A stretch of 64,000 bases of DNA from Pseudomonadota bacterium (GTDB lineage: Bacteria; Pseudomonadota; Alphaproteobacteria; Acetobacterales; Acetobacteraceae): positions 31,048 to 95,047 of the forward strand of contig JAJZVV010000011.1 in assembly GCA_021845595.1 (NCBI GenBank). The letters run 5' to 3'. Positions 8,013 to 18,725 of this stretch are shown piece by piece. The position numbers were made by a program, and so were the translations under genes. Numbering within the stretch: the stretch's first letter is position 1; every line of letters begins with the position of its first letter. The notes beneath the pieces were generated by a model. That model did no database searches. It was not told the DNA's origin and worked only from the letters and a program-made list of their open reading frames with translations.

Positions 8013-11000
8013 TCAGCCCGGCCGCATGCGCCGCGGCATACCCTGCTCGATTGCCGCGAGAATGGCCTCGCCGACATGTCCGGGATTGTAGAGCGCCGCG
8101 ATCCGCGCCTGCCCGGCGCGGCCGATCGCGCGTGCGGCCGCCTTGTCCTCGTGGACGTGGCGCATATGCGCCGCCGCCTGCTCCACGTCGGCCTCCGCCC
8201 AGCTCTGCCCTTCCGCCCCCGGATACTCGCCCGGCGCCACCGGCACGAGGTGGTAATCGACGACATAGGCGCAGTCCTGGGTGGCGAAGTCGGCGGTGCC
8301 GGAATAGCCGGTGACGATGACCGGCCGGCCGAGCAGCATCGCCTCAGCCGGTCCGCGGCCGAAGCCCTCGGAGCGGTGCAGCGAGACGAAAGCGTCGGCG
8401 GCGGCGATCAGGTCGAACACCGCGGCGCGGTCGAGCACGACGTCGCGCAGCGCGATGCGCGGATCGTCGCAGAGATCGGCGAGCGCCCGCCAGGCCAGCG
8501 GCGTGCTCGCGCCGCCCTGGGTCTTGATCAGGAGCTGCACCGGCTCTTCGCCGGTCGGGAACGCGGTGCGGAAGGCCTGCACCACCGCTTCGGGGTTCTT
8601 GCGGCTGGCGTAGGAGCGGAAATCGAACATGAACAGGAAGACGGTGGCGTCCTCGGGCAGGCCGAGCACCGTGCGGTCGGCACGCGGCTCGTGCGCGGGC
8701 GGCAGCACCGGCATCGGCACCCGGCGCACCGGCCGCAGCCCGGCGTGGGCGAAGGCGTCGCGGGCGAATTCCGTCGCCGCCCAGATTTCGTCGAAAAACG
8801 AGTAGGCGTGGCGCCAGCTCCGTGGCAGCCACTCCAGCTCCCACGCCCAGTAGCCGATGCTGCGCGCCGCGGTGACGCCGTGCTGGCGCAGGAACAGCAC
8901 GTCCTCGACCGCGGTGATGGCGTTGAGGTGGAGGATGTTGGCCTCGAACTCGACCCGCACGCCGGCGGGCAGCGCGGTGCCGTCCGGGCGCAGGATGCTG
9001 CCATCGGCGCGGTCGACCCCGAGCCAGTCGGTGAACGCCACCGCCTCCAGGGCGCGGGCGGTGGCGCGCACATCCTCGCCCCGTCCGGTGCTCTCGCGCC
9101 ACCAGCCGGTGAGCCCGATCCTGGCGCGGTGCACCGGCGCGATCACCGCCGGTTGTGCCAGATCGCGGGCGAACAGCGTGCCGAGCGGGTAGTCCGCGTA
9201 GCTGGAGGCGAAATTCTGCTTGGCCCAAGCCGCCAGCTCGGTCCGCCCGGTTTCGGTGGCGACGTCGAACAGGGCGCGGAGATCCGGGCGCGTATTCCGC
9301 ACCATCTCCAGCGCCACCGGCAGGCCTTCCAGCCGCGGCGAGGGGCCGGCGAGGAACTCGGCCAGGCGCGGATCGAACGCGTCGAGCGTGAGGCCGAGTT
9401 CGCTGAGGCCGCTGGTCACGAGCCAGTGCAGATAGCCGAGCCGCTGGTCCTCGTCGGCGAGCGGAAATGCGCTCTGCACGTCGGCGCGCGTCTCCCACAG
9501 CGCCATCTCCGCGCGGTTGAAGCGGAATCCGAGTACGCTGATATCGGTGAGTTCGGCAAAGTAGCGCCGCAACTCGGCCACCATCGGTGACGGCCAGCGA
9601 TAGGCGCGGGCGGCAAGGAACGCGTACCAGAGCCCATGCGAGAGCCGCGCCGAGCGATCGGTCGGGAAATCCTGCCAGCGGGCGAGATTGGCGCGGTGGG
9701 CCTGCACCTCGCGCGTCAGCAGCATGCCCTCGTTCAGCGGCATGTCGCCATACTGCGCGGCGATGTAGCTGCCCCGGCTGATCTGGGCGACGAAGGCGTC
9801 GGTGAACAGGGCCGGGTCGACGCTGCCCTCGTCGATCGCGGCGGTGATGACCCAGCCGAGGAAGGCGCGCGCCCGCTCCGATCGCGTGAGGTCGAAATGC
9901 GCCTGCAGATCGGGGCGCCGCTCCCAGCTCAGCGCCGCCTGCCGCGGCAGCAGCAGCGCCAACTCGCCCAGCGGCAAGCTGACATCGCCGTGCAGGAGCT
10001 GCAGCGCGTCGCTGGCCGCCCCGGGCCACATCTCCACGGCGAGCGACGGCCATGGCGGTGGGCGGGCGGTGATCAGCGCCGGCGCGCCGGGATCGGCCCC
10101 GCCGCGCAGCGCCCGGGCGGCCGCGATGCTGCGTCCGTCCACGCCCTCGGCCGCCGCATCGCCGCCGAGGAACCAGGTGTAATAGGCGTCGAGCCCGGGT
10201 TCGGTATGGATGTCGAAGACGGTGCGCAGGTCGGCCCGGTCCAGCCAGGTCTGATACATGAACCGGGTCAGCGCGATGCCGCGGGCTGCGGCGGTCTCGT
10301 CCGGCGCGTCGAAAAACCCGGAGGGAACATCGAGCCCGGTCGCCGGGTCCAGCCTTCCCTCGTCGACGGCGCGGACCAGCCAGCGCCGCATCGCCGGCTC
10401 GATCGGCCGGCCATCGGCGAAGCTGCCGAACCCATAGGTCAGGCTTCGCGTCCGCCGCCAGCCGTTGGCGTGCAGCAGGTCACGATAGCGCCGGGCCAGC
10501 GCGGCGGCAGGGGCGGGAACGGCATCGCGGAAGCGGCTCTCGTGGCGCGAGAGCAGTCGCTCGTCGTCGGGCACCAGCCCGCTGAAATGGAAGAAGATCA
10601 GCGGCTCGCCGTTGACCCGCCAGGCGCCGTCTGCGCCGGTTTCCACCATGCGGTGGGCGAGGTTCCAGTAGGCGACGTTGCAGCCGGGGTGGTGCAGTAT
10701 GGCGAGCCGCGGCACGAACGACGGGGCGAGGTCCATCCAGCGCTGGTCGGTGAACATGTGCCGCGCCAGATCGACGCGGCAGTGCAGCCGGCAGCGTTCG
10801 CCCCACCAGAGGAGCAGGCGCCTGGCATCGGCGTCGTCGCGCATCGCCGCGAAGCCCAGATTGTACACGCCCGACTGCAGGATGGTGAGATCGGAGGGTT
10901 CCAGCCCGTCATCGAGCGGCGCGGAGAGGTGCGGGGTGAGCACGACGCTGTGCTGGGCGAGCGGATCGAGCGCGGGAGCGAGCGGGGCCAGTACCAGGAT

Positions 11001-11393
11001 GTCCGGGTCGAGATAGCAGGCCTCGGCGAAGCCGAGGGTCTCGAACATGTGGCGGAAGGCGAACGGCTTGAGCGCGGTGTTGAACTCCAGCACGCTGTAG
11101 AGCCGCTGCATGGCGGGCAGCGTCGCGATGCCGAGCGTCTCGCAGCCGATCACCGTCGCGGCGAGGTCGAGCCCGGCGAAACTGCGCGGCGTGTCGGCGA
11201 GAATGATGAAGCGCGCGGCGTCCGGCTCGGCGGCGCGGACCGACTGCATCAGCGTCGCCGCGTAGGCGATGTAGTTGGCCGACGCGATGGTGAAGATGGC
11301 CCGGCGGGGCGCTGCCCGGCTGCTCCGGCGCCGAGCGCCCGCCGGGCGAACGGCGCCCCGCTTCTCCGCCGTGCTCGCCCTGACGTTCGCCAT
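8013..11393 (-). CDS. Large two-domain glycosyltransferase (GT-A N-terminal, GT4 C-terminal)
   Basis: About 1126 aa from the ATG at 11393; an upstream in-frame TTG at 11438 would add 15 Arg-rich residues. The N-terminal domain (about 30-290) looks like a GT-A fold with a DxD site in ACYLDPDILVL (D129/D131). The C-terminal domain (about 820-1115) is a group-1/GT4 transferase with a nucleotide-binding motif HRSEGFGRGPAEAM. The middle (about 375-725) carries four degenerate copies of a WxxRxDLxxxFD...W module. It probably builds a cell-surface or exopolysaccharide glycan in the cytoplasm. The adjacent, divergent exporter genes could share that role (inference). Acceptor and sugar donor cannot be read from the sequence. 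Confidence 0.85.
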   Translation of the reverse strand: MANVRASTAEKRGAVRPAGARRRSSRAAPRRAIFTIASANYIAYAATLMQSVRAAEPDAARFIILADTPRSFAGLDLAATVIGCETLGIATLPAMQRLYSVLEFNTALKPFAFRHMFETLGFAEACYLDPDILVLAPLAPALDPLAQHSVVLTPHLSAPLDDGLEPSDLTILQSGVYNLGFAAMRDDADARRLLLWWGERCRLHCRVDLARHMFTDQRWMDLAPSFVPRLAILHHPGCNVAYWNLAHRMVETGADGAWRVNGEPLIFFHFSGLVPDDERLLSRHESRFRDAVPAPAAALARRYRDLLHANGWRRTRSLTYGFGSFADGRPIEPAMRRWLVRAVDEGRLDPATGLDVPSGFFDAPDETAAARGIALTRFMYQTWLDRADLRTVFDIHTEPGLDAYYTWFLGGDAAAEGVDGRSIAAARALRGGADPGAPALITARPPPWPSLAVEMWPGAASDALQLLHGDVSLPLGELALLLPRQAALSWERRPDLQAHFDLTRSERARAFLGWVITAAIDEGSVDPALFTDAFVAQISRGSYIAAQYGDMPLNEGMLLTREVQAHRANLARWQDFPTDRSARLSHGLWYAFLAARAYRWPSPMVAELRRYFAELTDISVLGFRFNRAEMALWETRADVQSAFPLADEDQRLGYLHWLVTSGLSELGLTLDAFDPRLAEFLAGPSPRLEGLPVALEMVRNTRPDLRALFDVATETGRTELAAWAKQNFASSYADYPLGTLFARDLAQPAVIAPVHRARIGLTGWWRESTGRGEDVRATARALEAVAFTDWLGVDRADGSILRPDGTALPAGVRVEFEANILHLNAITAVEDVLFLRQHGVTAARSIGYWAWELEWLPRSWRHAYSFFDEIWAATEFARDAFAHAGLRPVRRVPMPVLPPAHEPRADRTVLGLPEDATVFLFMFDFRSYASRKNPEAVVQAFRTAFPTGEEPVQLLIKTQGGASTPLAWRALADLCDDPRIALRDVVLDRAAVFDLIAAADAFVSLHRSEGFGRGPAEAMLLGRPVIVTGYSGTADFATQDCAYVVDYHLVPVAPGEYPGAEGQSWAEADVEQAAAHMRHVHEDKAAARAIGRAGQARIAALYNPGHVGEAILAAIEQGMPRRMRPG

Positions 11394-11695
11394 GCCGCCG
11401 CGCCCTCGCCGGTTCGACCCCGCGGATGTGACCGGCAAGGCCCCCTAAGAGAGGCCCCCAAGAGAGCCCCCAAAAGGGCCCCCAGGCGATGCCACCACGT
11501 GTATTCACGCGGTTCAACCATACCCCGGCAGTCATTTCAACGCCCAAGCGGCGGCCGGGCCCGTCTCCACCCCTCGCCACCGGTCGGTGCGGCCCCATGT
11601 TAGGATAGGAGCGGCAGGGCGCGTATAGGCCCGTGCGCGCGGGCGCCTGATCTGGGTCATGGCGTGCCGGCGCCGCTGTGGCGAGAGAGCAGGGC
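11394..11695. other. Divergent intergenic region with a C-rich short repeat
   Basis: Separates the minus-strand glycosyltransferase from the plus-strand exporter operon and should hold both promoters. I could not assign a convincing -35/-10 pair. At 11440-11488 there are four imperfect copies of a roughly 13-nt unit close to GGCCCCCAAGAGA. No ORF with family resemblance is seen here. Confidence 0.5.
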
Positions 11696-12769
11696 ATGGA
11701 TGTTCGCGTGCAGACATGGCCGGCGACGCGCCAGCGGCGGCGGACCGGCCTGCGGGTGGCGGCGCTGCTCGCCGTGGCGCTGTCCGCCGGTGCTGGCGCT
11801 TGGCAGCTCTGGGGCCGGAGCCCGGCGGTGGCGACGCTGCACCCGGTGCGCGGCCCGGCCATCGAGGCGGTCTATGCCGCCGGCGTGGTCGAGGCGATCG
11901 ACACCGCGCGCGTCGGCACCAAGGTCGCCGGGCGGATCACCGACCTTCTCGTCGATGACGGCGATACGGTGAAGCAGGGCGAGCTGCTCGCCGTGATCGA
12001 CGATCGGGAGGCGCGCCGGCGGGTGGACGATGCCCGCGCCCGTCTCGAGCTCGCCGACCAGGAGCTGGCGCGCGACCGCGCCCTGCTGGCCCAGCATGTC
12101 CGCCCCGAGCAAGCGGTGCAGCGCTCCCAGGCGGAGCGCGACCGGGCCGCCGCGGGGCTCAAGATGGCCGCCGACCAGCTCGCCGATACGCGCATCCTCG
12201 CCCCATTCGACGGGGTGGTGATGAAGCGGGAGGTGGACAAGGGCGACATGCTGGCGGCCAATGCCACGCTGTTCACCATCGCCGTGCCCGGCCGGCTGCG
12301 CGTCGCCGCCGATGTCGACGAGCGCGACATCGCCCTGGTGCGGCTCGGCGCGCGGGTCGCGATCCGCGCCGATGCGCTGCCGGACCGGCCGGTGAGCGCG
12401 ACGGTGACGAACATCCGCCCGCTCGGCGATCCGGCGACGCGCAGCTTCCGGGTCGAAGCCAATCTGCCGCCCGATTCGGGGCTGATGGTGGGCATGACGG
12501 TGGACGTGAACATCGTCACCGGCGAACGCGCCGACGCGCTGCTGGTGCCGGCCACCGCCGTTCATCACGACGCGCCGCAGGGCGGACGCGCCGGGCCGGC
12601 CTATGTGTTCCGCGTCGTCGACGGCAAGGCCCGCCGCACCGCGGTCCAGACCGGCGCCGTCGGCGAGACGCGCGTCGAGATCCGCGCGGGGCTCGGCGCC
12701 GCCGACCGCGTCATCGCCGACCCGCCGGACGGGCTGGCGGACGGGCGCTCGGTGCGGGTCGAGCGCTGA
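11696..12769 (+). CDS. Membrane-fusion (HlyD/MacA-type) adaptor of an ABC exporter
   Basis: Periplasmic adaptor subunit. It has 357 aa with an N-terminal membrane anchor (about 17-36) and a split biotinyl-lipoyl-like domain (RVGTKVAGRITDLLVDDGDTVKQGELLAVID and DTRILAPFDGVVMKREVDKGDML). A short coiled-coil hairpin (about 105-160) and beta-barrel and membrane-proximal domains follow. ATG 11696 is preferred because AGCAGGG precedes it; an in-frame GTG at 11678 would add six residues. The stop overlaps the permease start (TGATG), showing an operon. The adaptor-permease-ATPase order resembles DevBCA/MacAB exporters; no outer-membrane partner is adjacent. Confidence 0.9.
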   Translation: MDVRVQTWPATRQRRRTGLRVAALLAVALSAGAGAWQLWGRSPAVATLHPVRGPAIEAVYAAGVVEAIDTARVGTKVAGRITDLLVDDGDTVKQGELLAVIDDREARRRVDDARARLELADQELARDRALLAQHVRPEQAVQRSQAERDRAAAGLKMAADQLADTRILAPFDGVVMKREVDKGDMLAANATLFTIAVPGRLRVAADVDERDIALVRLGARVAIRADALPDRPVSATVTNIRPLGDPATRSFRVEANLPPDSGLMVGMTVDVNIVTGERADALLVPATAVHHDAPQGGRAGPAYVFRVVDGKARRTAVQTGAVGETRVEIRAGLGAADRVIADPPDGLADGRSVRVER

Positions 12770-14010
12770 TGCCGCTCGCGCTCGATATCGCGCGCGCCCA
12801 TCTGCTCGGCCGCCGCCGCCAGAGCCTGGTCGCGGTCCTCGGCGTCACCCTCGGCGTCGCCTTCTTCATCGCCATGTCGGCGATGATGCACGGATTCCAG
12901 AATTATTTTCGCACCCAGATCGTCGATTCCAATCCCCACATCATGATCACCGACGAGATCCGCCGCCCGGCGCGCCAGCCGCTGGCGCTGCTGCATCCCG
13001 AGGCGGCGGTCGCGGTGACGCGGGTGCTGCCGCGCGATCCGGTGCGCGGCATCGCCAATGCGGGGGCGATTCTCGACGCGCTCGGGCGGATGGCGGGGCT
13101 GGCGGCGGCGCCGACCTTGCGCGGCCAGCTCATCCTGCGGCGCGCCGGGCGTGACTACGCCGTCGCCGCGCTCGGCATCGACCCGGTGCGCGAGGCGCGC
13201 GTCACCCAGCTCGCCGGCAACCTCGTCGCCGGCAGCCTGGACGCGCTCACACGCCAGTCGAACGGCGTCATCCTCGGCCGGGCGCTGGCGGTGAAGATGG
13301 GCGCCGGGCTGGGCGACACGATCACCGGCGTGGCCACGACCGGCGCGAGTGCCGCGCTGCGCGTCGTCGGGCTGTTCAGCACCGGCATCGAGACCCAGGA
13401 TCTGGGCCAGGTCTATCTCCAGCTCGCGCGCGAGCAGGCGCTGGAGAACCGGCCGCTGGTGGTCAACGAGATCGATATCCGCCTCGACGACATCACCCGC
13501 TCGGTGGCGATGGCGAAGGAGATCGAGGGGCGGTTCGGCTTCAAGGCGGCGCCGTGGGAGGAGACCTACAGCCGCATCCTGGCGGTGTTTCTGCTGCAGA
13601 ACATCATCATGACCACCGTCACCGGCGCGATTCTCGTCGTCGCCGGGTTCGGCATTTTCAACGTCATCTCGACGGTGGTGCTGGAGAAGGCGCGCGACAT
13701 CGCGATCATGCGCTCGATCGGCCTGTCGCGGCGCGTGATCGTGCGGATCTTCGTCATCGAGGGGGCGCTGGTCGGCAGCGTCGGCACCATGCTCGGCTGG
13801 CTGGTGGCGATGGCGATGGCGGCTGGCATCGCCCGCATCCCCGCGCCCGGCGCGACCGATCCGAACGAGACCATGCGCGTCGCCCAGTCCGTGGACCTCT
13901 ATGTCGTCGCCAGCCTGATCGCCATGGCCGCCGCCATCGGCGCGGCCTGGCTGCCGGCGCGGCGCGCGGCACGGACGGACCCGCTGGCGGTGATCCGGGG
14001 CGCGACGTGA
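12769..14010 (+). CDS. ABC transporter permease (FtsX/MacB/DevC type)
   Basis: A 413-aa permease with one N-terminal TM helix (about 17-40), a large periplasmic domain (about 45-270), and three C-terminal TM helices (about 285-400). This is the topology of FtsX-domain exporters such as LolC/E, MacB and DevC. The conserved segment ILVVAGFGIFNVISTVVLEKARDIAIMRSIGLSRR is the coupling region to the ATPase. The start overlaps the adaptor stop and the stop overlaps the ATPase start. Substrate unknown; lipid, glycolipid or peptide export are possible. Confidence 0.9.
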   Translation: MPLALDIARAHLLGRRRQSLVAVLGVTLGVAFFIAMSAMMHGFQNYFRTQIVDSNPHIMITDEIRRPARQPLALLHPEAAVAVTRVLPRDPVRGIANAGAILDALGRMAGLAAAPTLRGQLILRRAGRDYAVAALGIDPVREARVTQLAGNLVAGSLDALTRQSNGVILGRALAVKMGAGLGDTITGVATTGASAALRVVGLFSTGIETQDLGQVYLQLAREQALENRPLVVNEIDIRLDDITRSVAMAKEIEGRFGFKAAPWEETYSRILAVFLLQNIIMTTVTGAILVVAGFGIFNVISTVVLEKARDIAIMRSIGLSRRVIVRIFVIEGALVGSVGTMLGWLVAMAMAAGIARIPAPGATDPNETMRVAQSVDLYVVASLIAMAAAIGAAWLPARRAARTDPLAVIRGAT

Positions 14011-14699
14011 TCGCCGCCATCGCCGCGCGCGGCCTGACGCGCATCCTGCCGGGACCGGTGCCGACCGTGCTGGTGGAGGAGATCGACCTCGATTTCGCCC
14101 CCGGCAGCTTCACCGCCATCACCGGCCCGTCGGGTTCGGGCAAATCGTCGCTGCTCTATCTGCTCGGCCTGCTCGACCGGCCGAGCGCGGGCGAGGTGCT
14201 CGTCGAGGGCGCGCCGACAGCGGAGCTCGACGACGATACGCGCGGCGACCTCCGGCTGGAGCGCTTCGGCTTCGTCTTCCAGTTCCACTTCCTGCTGCCC
14301 GAGTTCACCGTGCTGGACAATGTGATCCTGCCGATGCGCGAGCTTGGGCAGCTGTCCGCGGCGGCGATGCGCGCACGCGGCGAGGCGCTGCTCGCCTCGC
14401 TCGACATGGCGGAGCTGGCGCGCAAGCTGCCGGGCCAGCTCTCCGGCGGCCAGCGTCAGCGCACCGCCATCGCCCGCGCGCTGGCCAACGACCCGCGCTT
14501 CATCCTCGCCGACGAGCCGACCGGCGCGCTCGACACGCGCAACGGCCGCGCCGTCTTCGCCATTCTCCGCCGGCTGGCCGAGGAGGGGCGGACGGTGATC
14601 GTCGTCACCCACGACGAAACGCTCGCCGCGCTGACCGACCGGCGCGTGCAGCTCATCGACGGCCGTCTCGCCGTCGATGCGCCGGTTCAGGACCGGTAG
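14007..14699 (+). CDS. ABC transporter ATP-binding protein (MacB/LolD type)
   Basis: A 230-aa ATPase starting at GTG 14007, overlapping the permease TGA. All motor motifs are intact: Walker A GPSGSGKSS, Q-loop FVFQFHFLLPEFTV, signature LSGGQRQRTAIARAL, Walker B RFILADEPTGALD and switch VTHDE. The short length and LPEFTVLDNVILPM resemble the LolD/MacB ATPase class. It powers the exporter encoded at 11696-14010. The 3' end overlaps the convergent aldolase gene by 13 nt. Confidence 0.93.
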   Translation: MIAAIAARGLTRILPGPVPTVLVEEIDLDFAPGSFTAITGPSGSGKSSLLYLLGLLDRPSAGEVLVEGAPTAELDDDTRGDLRLERFGFVFQFHFLLPEFTVLDNVILPMRELGQLSAAAMRARGEALLASLDMAELARKLPGQLSGGQRQRTAIARALANDPRFILADEPTGALDTRNGRAVFAILRRLAEEGRTVIVVTHDETLAALTDRRVQLIDGRLAVDAPVQDR

Positions 14700-15463
14700 T
14701 CGGGCCGGTCGGTTTCGATCAGCCGCAGCGCCGCGCCCCAGGCCAGCCCCTCGGCGCCGGCGCGGGCGGGGCCGTGGAACTGCGCGGCGGTGTGCGCGGC
14801 GACGGCCTCGGAGGGAATGATCAGCTCGGCGCCGCCGGCCAGCGCCTGGATCTGCGCCTGGCAGGCGCGCTCCAGATAATAGATCAGCAGGAACGCCTCG
14901 GCGATCGACCGTCCCGCCACCAGCAGCCCGTGATTGCGCAGGATCATCGCCTGGTGCTGGCCGAGATCCGCCACCAGCCGCGCGCGCTCGTCGAGCTCGA
15001 GCGCGATGCCCTCATAGTCGTGATAGGCGAGATGGCCATGAAACATCATCGCGTGCTGGGAGATCGGCAGCAGCCCGTGCTTCTGGGCCGAGACGGCGAT
15101 GCCGGCGGCGGTGTGGGTGTGCACGACGCAGCTCAGATCCGGCCGTGCCGCGTGGATGGCGGAATGGATGGTGAAGCCGGCGGCGTTGACGCGGCGGCTC
15201 ATCTGCTCGTCCTGGCCGATGATGCGGCCTTCGAGATCGATCTTCACCAGGTCCGAGGCGCGCATTTCGTGGAACAGCACGCCGTACTGGTTGATCAGGA
15301 AATGATGCTCGGGGCCCGGCAGGCGGGCGCTTATATGGGTGTAGATGAAGTCGGTCATGCGGAAATGCGCGACCAGCCGATAGAGCGCGGCGAGGTCGCA
15401 GCGCACCTGCCATTCCTCGGCGCCGATCCCGGCCGGGATCGCGGTCTCGGTGACGATGTTCAT
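14687..15463 (-). CDS. Class II aldolase/adducin family protein
   Basis: Zinc-dependent aldolase-fold protein, 258 aa. Metal ligands are visible in SCVVHTHTAAG (HxH) and probably MILRNHGLLVAG. The N-terminal TDFIYTHISARLPG and FLINQYGVLFHEM are typical of the adducin-like subfamily that includes fuculose-phosphate aldolase relatives. The subfamily is often annotated only as class II aldolase, so the substrate is unknown. ATG 15463 is supported by GGGGGAGA upstream. It is convergent with the exporter ATPase and monocistronic as far as can be seen. Confidence 0.9.
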   Translation of the reverse strand: MNIVTETAIPAGIGAEEWQVRCDLAALYRLVAHFRMTDFIYTHISARLPGPEHHFLINQYGVLFHEMRASDLVKIDLEGRIIGQDEQMSRRVNAAGFTIHSAIHAARPDLSCVVHTHTAAGIAVSAQKHGLLPISQHAMMFHGHLAYHDYEGIALELDERARLVADLGQHQAMILRNHGLLVAGRSIAEAFLLIYYLERACQAQIQALAGGAELIIPSEAVAAHTAAQFHGPARAGAEGLAWGAALRLIETDRPDYRS

Positions 15464-15528
15464 GGTTTTCTCCCCCGTATGGCTGCCCCCGTATCGGCGC
15501 GGAGTGTCGGACCGCGCGCCTTGGCGCG

Positions 15529-17895
15529 TCAAGCGGCGTCCGGGCCGTGGGTCAGAACCCAGCCGGCGGGGCGCTCGAGCAGGCAGAGCTCGAGCAGCGC
15601 CGGCGTTGCCGCGGCCCAGCCGGGCAGACGCAGCAGGCCGCGGCCGTCGCTCCAGCGCCAGCGCTTCGCGCCGTCGTGCTCGGGTGCATGGAACCCCGGC
15701 CCGAACACGACACTGTCCAGGTCGAGCGCGCGGCCGTTGACGACGAGGCCGCGGACGCCGACGCCGAGGGCGCGGACATCCTCCTCCGCCGCATCGAGCC
15801 CGGCGGGCACGAAGTCGGCCGAACCCAGCGTCACCTGCGCGGTGCCGGCCGGGAGCAGGAAGCTGCGCACCGCCGCGCGCACCCGCGCCGGGCGGAGCCG
15901 GCGCGCCGAGCCGGGCCATTCGAGCCACGGCTCCGCGCCAGGCGCCGGCCGATAGCCGAGCGCCGGCAGCCGCGCCAGCAGCGCCCGCTTGACCGCGGCC
16001 AGCGCCGGCCCGGTCGTGACCAGCGGCGCGCACGCATCGCGCGCCCACGAACGGCGCGGGCGCCGCGCCAGCGTCGCGAACGGCCGCGGCGCCGTGGCCG
16101 CGTTGCCGAAGCTGGCGCGGTTGCCGGTATCGAGATAGCTCTCGACCGCGAGCCCCTCGGCGAGAATGACGTCGTGGCTGGCGAGTTCGACGTGGAAATA
16201 CTCGACGGCGGCCCGCCGCACCGTGGCGATCGAAGCCCCGTTCGCCAGGTAGCGGACAGGGACCAGCGCGCCGGCCGCGAACACGGCGTGGTCGGGCGAG
16301 AGGAACAGATCGCGCTCCGGCAGCGCGGCGCCGAACGCGCCGGCGCGCACCCGCACCGGCCAGACGGTGGCGGGCTGCGGATGGCCCGCGCAGTCCACCT
16401 GGCGCCGGCCGATCCAGACCACCTCGCGCAGGTCGCCGTGTGCGGTGCGCACGCGCATGCCCGGCCGCAGCATCTCGACGGCGAGCGGCCCGTCCGCGGT
16501 GGCGATGCGCGTGCCGCGGGCGAAGCAGGCGGTGATGTCGGTGCCGCCGCCGGGCGCGGCGCTGAGGAGGAAATCGCCGCTGTGGTACGGGCCGGCGATG
16601 CGCAGCTGCGCCTGCACCACGCCGGCCTCGCTCAGCGTCAGCGTGCCAGCGGCATAGGCCTGCTGCTCGGCCGCGCCGCCTGCGACAGTGACGAGACGGA
16701 TCGTGTCGCCGACGGTGAAATTCTCGATCAGACCGTTCGTCGCCAGCGCCTGCGAGACATCGAGCCGGCCGCCGAAACCCGGGCCGAACAGGATGGTCTG
16801 CGACGCGCCCACGCTCTCGCGCAGCGCCAGCGTCGCGCCGGCGTCGACCAGCAGCCGGCCGGTTCCGGCGACCGGGCTGCCGATGATGAGGTCGTGCCGG
16901 CTCTCGATCAGCCCGTCATTGCCGAGGGTCGGGCCGGCGGCGCCGCCGAGATCGATCGTCGACGGTGCGAGGCCGGTGGCATCGATCTGCCCGGCGGCCT
17001 CATTGGTGAGGGCGAGCGGGGCGCCGTTGCCGCCGATGGTGAAGACGCCGTCGATGATGTTGCTGACGTTGAGCAGCGCGGCCGGCGCGGTGCCGGTGGG
17101 ATCCGTCTCGATCATGCCGCCGGCGCCGAGGCCGATGATGCCGCCGCCGGTGAGCGTCACGCTGTCGCCGGCCGCGATCTCGATCAGCCCGCCCGACGGG
17201 CCGCCGGCCGAGAGCACCCCGGCATTGTCGATGCGGCCATTCAGTTCGAGGTTGAATGCGCCGGCGCCGCCGATGGTCGTGCCGGCGGTGATCGTCACCG
17301 GCATGGCGCTGCCGTCGAGCGTCGTCGCGGCGACGGGTGCGATGATCGCGCCGCCAAGAGCAGTTTCGAGTGTGCCGCCGCTGACATCGACCAGATCAAG
17401 CGTGACGACCGCGCCCGGGCCGATCGCGGCGATCGTTCCGACCGCGGCGCCGATGAAATTCTCGATGCTGGAATTGTCGATCAGCAGCCCGCCGCTGCCG
17501 GTCGCCTCGATCAGTCCGGCATTGTCGACGATCTCCGGAAATGTGAGCCCGAGCACGAGGGGCCCGGCGCCGTTGCCATCGATGATGCCGCCCGACTGGT
17601 TGACGATCGCGGACAGCGGCGCCTGCTGCGAAAGGGAGATGATCCCGGCGCCCTCGATGGTTCCGTTGACGTTAGCCAGTGTCACGGCGCCGTGGTCCGG
17701 GCGGCCGTTCCCGATCGTGCTGTGGAGGAAATAGGATCCGTCGAGCAGAATCGTGCCGCCATTGTCGAGCGTGGCGTTCCCCGTCAGTGCCAGGCTGGCG
17801 GGCTGGCGCTGGGTGCCATCGATCTCGATGGTCTCGTAGGCGATGACCCCTGCGAGGTCGAGCGTTGATCCGGCCGCGACGATCGTCGAGGACAT
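15529..17895 (-). CDS. Hint-domain protein with beta-helix N-terminal region
   Basis: A 788-aa protein. Residues 1-450 are Gly/Ala/Ile-rich repeats of the form I(D/E)NAGLIEATG or GTIEGAGIISL, as in right-handed beta-helices of autotransporter-like proteins. A Hint (hedgehog/intein-type) domain starts at C457 in TDITACFARGTRIATADGPLAVEMLRPGM and runs to about 595, with the LSPDHAVF block. A C-terminal region (600-788) has no motif I recognise. Hint domains of this type (Hint_2) probably self-cleave at the Cys; the catalytic Cys and the SPDH histidine are present. No classical signal peptide is seen. ATG 17895 follows an AGGAGA site. Surface or extracellular location is inference. Confidence 0.85.
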   Translation of the reverse strand: MSSTIVAAGSTLDLAGVIAYETIEIDGTQRQPASLALTGNATLDNGGTILLDGSYFLHSTIGNGRPDHGAVTLANVNGTIEGAGIISLSQQAPLSAIVNQSGGIIDGNGAGPLVLGLTFPEIVDNAGLIEATGSGGLLIDNSSIENFIGAAVGTIAAIGPGAVVTLDLVDVSGGTLETALGGAIIAPVAATTLDGSAMPVTITAGTTIGGAGAFNLELNGRIDNAGVLSAGGPSGGLIEIAAGDSVTLTGGGIIGLGAGGMIETDPTGTAPAALLNVSNIIDGVFTIGGNGAPLALTNEAAGQIDATGLAPSTIDLGGAAGPTLGNDGLIESRHDLIIGSPVAGTGRLLVDAGATLALRESVGASQTILFGPGFGGRLDVSQALATNGLIENFTVGDTIRLVTVAGGAAEQQAYAAGTLTLSEAGVVQAQLRIAGPYHSGDFLLSAAPGGGTDITACFARGTRIATADGPLAVEMLRPGMRVRTAHGDLREVVWIGRRQVDCAGHPQPATVWPVRVRAGAFGAALPERDLFLSPDHAVFAAGALVPVRYLANGASIATVRRAAVEYFHVELASHDVILAEGLAVESYLDTGNRASFGNAATAPRPFATLARRPRRSWARDACAPLVTTGPALAAVKRALLARLPALGYRPAPGAEPWLEWPGSARRLRPARVRAAVRSFLLPAGTAQVTLGSADFVPAGLDAAEEDVRALGVGVRGLVVNGRALDLDSVVFGPGFHAPEHDGAKRWRWSDGRGLLRLPGWAAATPALLELCLLERPAGWVLTHGPDAA

Positions 17896-18029
17896 GGCGG
17901 GTCTCCTGGCAGACGGCGCGGCAGGTTCTGTCGGGAAGCCCGGCGTGCGACCGTTTCCTTGCCGTGGAGATACCATTCCGCCCCGACGCACGCACGCGTA
18001 TTCTGTTTCGCCACCGCGCAGGAGCCCCG
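17896..18029. promoter_or_regulatory. Divergent promoter region, Hint protein / VIT transporter
   Basis: 134 bp between two divergently transcribed genes, so both promoters must lie here or overlap the gene starts. The ribosome-binding sites are clear on each side (AGGAGA for the Hint gene, CAGGAG for the VIT gene). No operator palindrome stood out. Confidence 0.5.
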
Positions 18030-18725
18030 ATGCCCACCGTTCCCCACATGGAAAAGCACTTCACCGCCACCGCGACGGTTCGCGATGTCGTCATCGGCAT
18101 GGCGGACGGGCTTACCGTGCCGTTCGCGCTCGCCGCCGGCCTCTCGGCTGCGGTCTCGTCGAGCCGGGTCATCGTCACCGCCGGGCTGGCCGAGATCGCC
18201 GCCGGGGCCATCGCCATGGGGCTCGGCGGCTATCTTGCAGCCCGCACCGATGCCGAGCACTACGCCGCCGAGGAACGGCGCGAGCAAACCGAGATCGAAA
18301 CCCTGCGCGCGCGCGAGGTCCGCGAGGTCGAGGAGATTCTCGGCGGTTTCGGGCTGACCGGCGTGCCGTTGCAGACCGTCGTCGATGCGATCACGGCGGA
18401 TCCGCGGCGCTGGACCGACTTCATGATGCGGTTCGAGCTCGGGCTGGAACGGCCCGACCCGCAGCGCGCGCCGGTGAGCGCAGCGACGATCGCCGGCGCC
18501 TACCTGCTGGGCGGACTGATCCCGCTCGCACCCTATATCGCCGGGGCCAGCATCGCCCGCGCGCTGCCGATCTCGATCGCCTGCACCGGTGCGGCCCTGC
18601 TCGTGTTCGGCGCCGTGAAGGGCCACTTCACCGGCCTGAACCGGATCCGCTCGGCATTGCAGACGTTGCTGGTCGGCGGCCTGGCGGCGGGTGCGGCCTA
18701 TCTCCTGGCCGGATTGTTCGCCTGA
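18030..18725 (+). CDS. VIT1/CCC1-family iron/manganese transporter
   Basis: A 231-aa membrane protein of the VIT family, which moves Fe2+ or Mn2+ out of the cytosol. The N-terminal EKHFTATATVRDVVIGMADGLTVPFALAAGLSAAV is the family signature. It is followed by an acidic cytoplasmic helical insert (about 75-125; EERREQTEIETLRAREVREVEEIL) like the metal-binding domain of plant VIT1, then three more hydrophobic helices. ATG 18030 is preceded by AGGAG at good spacing. It stands alone between divergent and convergent neighbours. Confidence 0.9.
   Translation: MPTVPHMEKHFTATATVRDVVIGMADGLTVPFALAAGLSAAVSSSRVIVTAGLAEIAAGAIAMGLGGYLAARTDAEHYAAEERREQTEIETLRAREVREVEEILGGFGLTGVPLQTVVDAITADPRRWTDFMMRFELGLERPDPQRAPVSAATIAGAYLLGGLIPLAPYIAGASIARALPISIACTGAALLVFGAVKGHFTGLNRIRSALQTLLVGGLAAGAAYLLAGLFA

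Follow-up and report, generated by a model that had tools for sequence, protein, structure and literature searches.

The Hint superfamily has been set out in two accounts (PMC7664689, PMC5874633). In those parts of the literature that were available to us, Hedgehog is the sole Hint described as joining its passenger to a small molecule, whereas bacterial Hints cut or splice. The sterol recognition region (SRR) of Hedgehog is described there as a cholesterol-engaging helix-loop-helix motif (PMC7242414), and "adduct recognition region" is the term used for the nematode equivalents (PMC2362128). Type B bacterial intein-like domains (BILs) have no block G and cleave without splicing (PMC4031507), and Hint domains in toxins have also been described (PMC4524018, PMC3482391). 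The Pfam family Hint_2 (PF13403) appears among the functions enriched in fast-growing marine bacteria (PMC12487129), and in the available part of a paper on a cellulose producer such a gene is given as one of unknown function (PMC11999647). Here we analyzed a Hint_2 protein of 788 residues encoded on the minus strand (15529-17895) of a 64,000-nucleotide stretch of an Acetobacteraceae genome (contig JAJZVV010000011.1, positions 31,048 to 95,047), referred to below as the window. The protein consists of a passenger (residues 1-456), a Hint domain (457-593) and a C-terminal domain (CTD, 594-788).

This three-part plan resembles that of the Hedgehog Hint-SRR unit (Hog), with a passenger, a Hint domain that has a Cys nucleophile and no terminal Asn, and an extra C-terminal region expected to stay with the Hint. 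Unlike in Hedgehog, the extra region is mostly β and is related to domains found on glycan enzymes, and the N-terminus is not signal-like. The helix-loop-helix sterol recognition region is absent; the modeled CTD consists mostly of strands after two short helices. As in type B BILs, block G is absent; cleavage without splicing would be expected, and a BIL (2lwy) is the closest solved match. Unlike the BILs described in the literature consulted in part, none of which carries this CTD, the domain is filed as Hint_2 by Pfam. The protein belongs to the same Pfam family as those annotated "Hint domain-containing protein", a label seen on many of the plasmid matches listed (Acetobacter, Cupriavidus and others), and it is not different from them in kind. 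No account of a Hint plus CTD family was recognized in the searched literature, where most subscription journals were not covered. The gene is thus an ordinary member of a large, little-studied family, and the family is the interesting part.

Our preferred reading, which we hold tentatively, is a Hedgehog-like N-cleavage cassette followed by a docking tail. Its parts differ in strength. The cassette is likely to sever the passenger before Cys457, and we are quite confident that no second cut releases the CTD, while contact of the CTD with a glycan is conceivable but open to real doubt. Similar cassettes behind many presumed exported proteins in the family are probably a general means to cut, and perhaps to anchor, them. 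The same three-part plan, with a third part that also occurs on glycan enzymes, makes the thioester attachment of exported proteins by a bacterial Hint testable; if a glycan nucleophile meets the thioester, bacteria would have an analogue of Hedgehog ligation. The passengers, which include proteases, a lipase and adhesin-like repeats, suggest a general device that is widespread in Acetobacteraceae, a family that includes the cultivable acetic acid bacteria. Copies that have lost the first Hint residue, Cys1, are natural mutants, and copies whose tail is short or of another kind can serve as controls for the CTD.

The Hint domain and its first cysteine

The open frame runs from an ATG at 17893-17895, preceded by AGGAG, to a stop codon at 15529-15531 without an internal stop, as an earlier sequence-only reading of this DNA had placed it. 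The two same-genus orthologues (83% and 79% identity to the protein) keep the start MS(S/A)TI; the same-genus locus L102 is 77% identical. That reading had also named Cys457 as the nucleophile of a Hint domain with the His of an SPDH motif, and both were borne out. PF13403 matched residues 457-590 (E 3.2e-44, 151.3 bits against a cut-off of 28.4), with Cys457 (16525-16527) as the first Hint residue and the conserved B-block motif SPDH at residues 533-536 (16288-16299). No other Pfam or NCBIfam family matched the protein at E up to 1. From this match, the structural model and the PDB matches, the Hint_2 domain was assigned to residues 457-593 (16117-16527).

An AlphaFold2 model of residues 446-788, built on a 76-sequence alignment, had a predicted local distance difference test (pLDDT) score of 91.8 and a predicted template modeling score of 0.89. 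The best solved match of its Hint part was 2lwy (Z 14.2, root-mean-square deviation (rmsd) 2.1, 116 residues). The Hedgehog autoprocessing domain 1at0 (Z 12.0, rmsd 2.6, 115 residues) and many inteins also matched. By sequence, the only solved relative found for the protein was a weak BIL match of the Hint. In these alignments Cys457 (Cys12 of the model) pairs with the first residue of the inteins and with residue 258 of 1at0, and the model combines the superfamily fold with an N-terminal Cys (Cys457) and a B-block His (His536). Self-processing, as proposed in the sequence-only reading, is plausible for such a fold. Among rows with a CTD match, Cys1 and the B-block and F-block His were almost invariant, the B-block His being present in 146 of 148 distinct rows.

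The end of the Hint domain departs from that of splicing inteins and type A BILs. The terminal His-Asn of block G is replaced by Glu585-Ser586 (16138-16143). Ser586, residue 141 of the model, lies where many of the intein alignments end, and it pairs with residue 145 of 6rix, which is the Asn that the title of the variant 6riy mentions. Across the 148 distinct rows, position 586 was Ser in 135, Thr in 10 (Ser or Thr in 145), Ala in one and a gap in two, and never Asn; Glu occupied position 585 in 145. With Ser586 instead of the terminal Asn, N-terminal cleavage alone is expected, and the Hint and CTD (332 residues) should remain joined. The earlier idea that cleavage would free a C-terminal piece of 190 residues was not upheld.

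Retention of Cys1 was linked to the presence of a passenger. Where 100 or more residues precede it, Cys1 was retained in all 174 distinct copies; where fewer do, it was lost in 6 of 19 (Fisher p 4e-7, treating copies as independent and ignoring relatedness). The sample was non-random: the long-passenger copies were mostly best-scoring matches together with 20 further stretches, mostly weaker matches, and short-passenger copies were deliberately sought. The count excludes duplicates, five Hint frames whose profile match started after position 12, 5'-open frames with fewer than 100 residues upstream, and the loci of family f23, in which three genomes carry many Hint_2 copies. The six losses came from five genomes in five genera (two in G004, one each in G148, G089, G010 and G143), and Cys1 was replaced by Ser, Gly, Ser, Ala, Gly and Arg. 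Three of these copies also lacked the B-block and F-block His, one lacked only the F-block His, and two kept both. Confinement of the losses to copies with short passengers is as expected if Cys1 processes the passenger. In three Hint plus CTD proteins (L097, L246 and L247), an intact Cys1 follows only about five residues.

The C-terminal domain and its distribution

The CTD (residues 594-788, 15532-16116) is a conserved domain, as seen in two alignments (A1, the source of its profile, and A5). A model of residues 606-788 alone (pLDDT 90.1) predicted two short helices followed by an all-β part. The signature WRWSDG (residues 746-751, 15643-15660) stood out by column conservation in 76 rows, with R747 and G751 invariant and W748 at 90% or more. 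When 32 members were compared with Pfam, every family matched at most one of them (best E 0.0043), a Foldseek search with the CTD model gave no match at E 0.001 or better, and no solved relative of the CTD was found by sequence. The absence of a confident fold match does not show that the fold is new. The chitin-binding domain 2cwr matched weakly (Z 4.1). The CTD, which the sequence-only reading had called an unknown domain, still carries no Pfam name, and it proved not to be peculiar to this gene.

In the host genome, seven Hint_2 matches and seven CTD matches fell in the same seven places. The other six passengers comprise five β-rich repeats, judged by eye, and one M10 metalloprotease (E 1.7e-18); two of these paralogues gave weak adhesin- or haemagglutinin-like matches below the cut-off. 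The metalloprotease (L192:6429-8033, contig G000:C41) shows, by eye, the zinc-binding motif HExxHxxGxxH ahead of its Hint and CTD. Among 150 genomes of the family Acetobacteraceae, to which the host belongs, Hint_2 was found in 119 and the CTD in 113; ten genomes had Hint_2 without a CTD match, and four had the reverse. The totals were at least 753 Hint_2 and at least 642 CTD matches, from searches in which the candidates scored per genome were limited in number. Across the class, 14 of 289 genomes had Hint_2 (10 above the cut-off) and four had the CTD. CTD-bearing relatives occurred in Methylobacterium (L173, L174, L177 and L180) and in Cupriavidus (L300). Plasmid records gave 214 matches, just two of which covered at least 80% of the Hint plus CTD, and phage records gave none. 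The plasmid matches in Acetobacter pomorum and Gluconobacter oxydans spanned only about half of it. L300 encodes a full Hint plus CTD protein on a mobilizable plasmid of the betaproteobacterium Cupriavidus sp. USMAA2-4 (NZ_CP017750.1), where the gene adjoins type II secretion genes and lies near a filamentous haemagglutinin gene.

Outside f23, 193 distinct Hint frames were classified by their tails. The CTD was full, meaning at least 120 of the 190 profile positions, in 164; this share is too high because many loci were fetched by CTD or whole-module queries. In CTD-bearing copies the distance from Cys1 to the stop codon was mostly about 310-350 residues, regardless of the passenger. Two types of tail without the CTD were recognized. 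One has about 50 residues, often with CAPL..G..L..(V/I)R.RL, and the other has about 150-180 residues and was seen in L205, L263, L265 and L266, which look alike by eye. We read the tail behind the Hint as exchangeable, judging by these sequences. The longer type carries, by eye, the motif GW..D....PV.....G..V.R..AN..R.D...AG...G.

The CTD also occurs on proteins other than Hint proteins, some of them glycan enzymes. Such occurrences were sought in eight genomes, selected because most of them had more CTD than Hint matches, with enzyme labels taken from Pfam. The domain was present on a polysaccharide pyruvyl transferase (L282, 6.6e-22) and on two proteins resembling glycosyltransferase family 4 (GT4), L091 (3.3e-22) and L094 (6.7e-10), for which Pfam support was weak or absent. 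A single open frame, L087 (292-2424 minus, contig G010:C162; 3.2e-25), unites a GT4 domain with the CTD and a degenerate Hint in which Ala replaces Cys1. The CTD was clear on L075, L076 and L254, each with an unnamed second domain, and it stood alone in L182 and L183. A membrane protein without a Pfam match (L088) gave a weak CTD match (5.7e-5). A further weak match, on L079, was absent on a repeat search and was dropped. The spread of the CTD over glycan enzymes suggests a role at surface glycans. In the pyruvyltransferase-like protein (L282:1082-2581 plus, contig G089:C108), the CTD is preceded by an apparent permuted half copy, seen by eye, which suggests circular permutation of the domain. 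The unnamed domain of L075, L076 and L254 follows the CTD, bears the motif (F)xSLG(D/E)(D/N)CE(L/F)GxVQ(R/K), and had no Pfam match at E 0.01.

Passengers, export and competing explanations

The passenger of the window protein (residues 1-456, 16528-17895) contains neither Cys nor Lys and matched no Pfam or NCBIfam family at E up to 1. The sequence-only reading had taken it for an autotransporter-type β-helix without a barrel. The repeat motif [VIL]xN(x1-3)Gx[VIL], picked after the sequence had been read, occurs seven times in it against a mean of 0.7 in shuffled sequences, and none of 2000 shuffles reached seven; no β-barrel family was matched by Pfam (E up to 1). Simple hydrophobic periodicity, in contrast, was not above shuffles. 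From its sequence the passenger is likely to be a β-helix. Directly before the Hint lies a GDxI-type segment (residues ~393-455, 16531-16719), found in 26 of 187 passenger-bearing Hint open reading frames (ORFs), a set that includes f23 loci.

Passengers elsewhere are varied. We compared 68 N-termini from named loci, with 5'-open frames left out. Pfam recognized Beta_helix in four, AIDA in two, matrixin in two, and one each of subtilase, trypsin, GDSL lipase, phosphoesterase, Hcp-like, cadherin-like and others; in 46 or more, no Pfam family matched at E 0.001. A crude hydropathy rule, which passed five of five positive controls, found a signal-like N-terminus in none of the 68 and in none of the seven host copies. 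For the 68, the first possible ATG or GTG was taken as the start, whereas the starts of the seven paralogues were chosen by eye; some of the 68 starts clearly lie too far upstream, so a signal peptide could be hidden. A classical autotransporter (T5a) was rejected on the grounds that the protein has no barrel family, a small all-β C-terminal part in the model, and no signal-like N-terminus by the crude rule. Of the features of type I substrates, the lack of an N-terminal signal peptide was found by the same rule, and RTX repeats were not found in the window protein by Pfam. The PrtD profile was discarded as a discriminator for type I secretion, as it matched 150 of 150 genomes and 14 of 14 controls, with 36 of the 150 above the cut-off; the best match in the host genome was below it (310.6 against 510.15 bits). 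The earlier suggestion of a surface or released protein was judged plausible. As for the secretion genes it envisaged, an ABC transporter and an HlyD-type gene occur together in the host genome, but no dedicated set lies beside the Hint genes. Relatives of the host HlyD-type protein were found near none of the 80 Hint loci inspected, ABC ORFs were present in nine loci, and no gene neighborhood was shared by more than nine.

In the preferred reading of a cleavage cassette with a docking tail, the β-repeat passenger would be exported, presumably without a cleaved signal peptide. Upon folding of the Hint, the Ala456-Cys457 peptide bond would shift to a thioester, and water or another nucleophile would resolve it and detach the passenger with a new C-terminus. 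The Hint and CTD would stay together after this cut, the terminal Asn for C-terminal cleavage being absent. The CTD would be an exchangeable all-β docking tail, most likely holding the precursor on a surface glycan or presenting that glycan. The first step probably does not require the CTD, since Hint copies with other tails share the catalytic residues. In a bolder version, a hydroxyl or amine of the CTD-held surface glycan attacks the passenger thioester at Cys457, so that diverse exported proteins become covalently fixed to the cell's own polysaccharide; we regard this as a long shot. The analysis established the architecture, the fold, the conservation of residues, the link between Cys1 and a passenger, and the presence of the CTD on glycan enzymes, while cleavage itself, the export route and the glycan contact are what we infer.

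The most serious competitor is plain autocleavage with shedding, in which the CTD plays no part at glycans and acts only in a type I route, as an export signal or a folding tail. The missing signal-like N-termini would suit it, as would the nearly constant length from Cys1 to the stop codon and the ABC transporter and HlyD-type gene of the host. Copies without the CTD, which occur both in this family and in f23, also speak for it in one respect, yet they would be left without the signal. The PrtD result lends it nothing. The occurrence of the CTD on a pyruvyltransferase, next to GT4 behind a degenerate Hint, and alone means that a binding domain fits better than an export signal. Plain shedding is thus possible, although we are inclined to doubt it. 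That the Hint is a catalytically silent folding scaffold and nothing is cleaved is improbable. Copies that lost Cys1 persist with their CTD, as a scaffold would allow, and cleavage by the cassette is a prediction from sequence. Against this, Cys1 and the two His are almost invariant, and the sampled losses of Cys1 were confined to copies with a short passenger or none.

A polymorphic or contact-dependent toxin, with a filamentous repeat, a Hint and a C-terminal toxin freed by cleavage, was also considered. The order of repeat, Hint and C-terminal domain does resemble the HINT-bearing polymorphic toxins, as far as the available part of PMC3482391 describes them, and a minority of copies have other tails; like MafB, for example, the protein joins a repeat or variable region and a Hint in a protein that would be secreted. 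Unlike in MafB-type toxins, the passenger varies far more than the tail, the reverse of the polymorphic pattern: the mean column identity was 8% for the N-terminal part (alignment A6), a value that partly reflects unalignable lengths, against 32% for the tail (A5). The tail is not highly variable, as a full CTD follows most Hint copies in a sample that was partly fetched by CTD queries. PT-HINT (PF07591) was not found in the host genome, the window protein matched Hint_2 only, the next gene encodes an aldolase, and Pfam found neither a TPS nor a β-barrel domain in the protein. We rejected the toxin reading, mainly on the variable N-terminal part and the absence of PF07591, and consider it extremely improbable.

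Several observations weigh against the cleavage cassette with a docking tail. The literature consulted in part contains no report of cleavage. Cys1 is still present in 13 of the 19 copies with short upstream parts, in several of them after no more than about five residues, and its tie to a passenger is therefore not strict; one f23 frame (L235) matches the Hint profile without Cys1. The CTD is not universal: among the 193 frames it was partial in 19, some of which end at a contig edge, and absent in 10, and the longer alternative tail replaces it in four loci. Eleven f23 loci carry a tail of about 50 residues instead. In 13 short-frame loci selected from a list made with Hint_2 alone, two of which are truncated by the contig end, it was full in two, partial in four and absent in seven. 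The likeness of the CTD to glycan-binding domains is weak, with a best Z of 5.5 for a dextranase domain (rmsd 3.7, 83 residues). In the host genome the CTD occurs only behind a Hint, in all seven copies. On a GT2 protein (L083, 2.3e-5), a methyltransferase (L078, 2.0e-4) and a sulfotransferase (L283, 6.4e-4), the matches were weak. Dedicated secretion genes were found beside none of the Hint genes in the 80 loci, which held 488 crudely called ORFs.

Neighboring genes in the window

In a frame of 1141 residues (8013-11438, minus strand), a glycosyltransferase group 1 domain lies close to the C-terminal end, and the long N-terminal part had no Pfam match above the cut-off. Genes for an HlyD-type adaptor, a MacB/FtsX permease and an ABC ATPase lie consecutively at 11678-14699 on the plus strand, near the aldolase gene. 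Pfam assigns the set to the MacAB kind, and we see no link between it and the Hint gene. Just downstream of the Hint gene is the class II aldolase gene (14687-15475, minus strand; PF00596, E 7.9e-52), which adjoins it in both same-genus orthologues and probably lies outside the Hint module. On the other side, a divergent VIT-family gene (17865-18725, plus strand) adjoins the Hint gene and is kept in both same-genus genomes.

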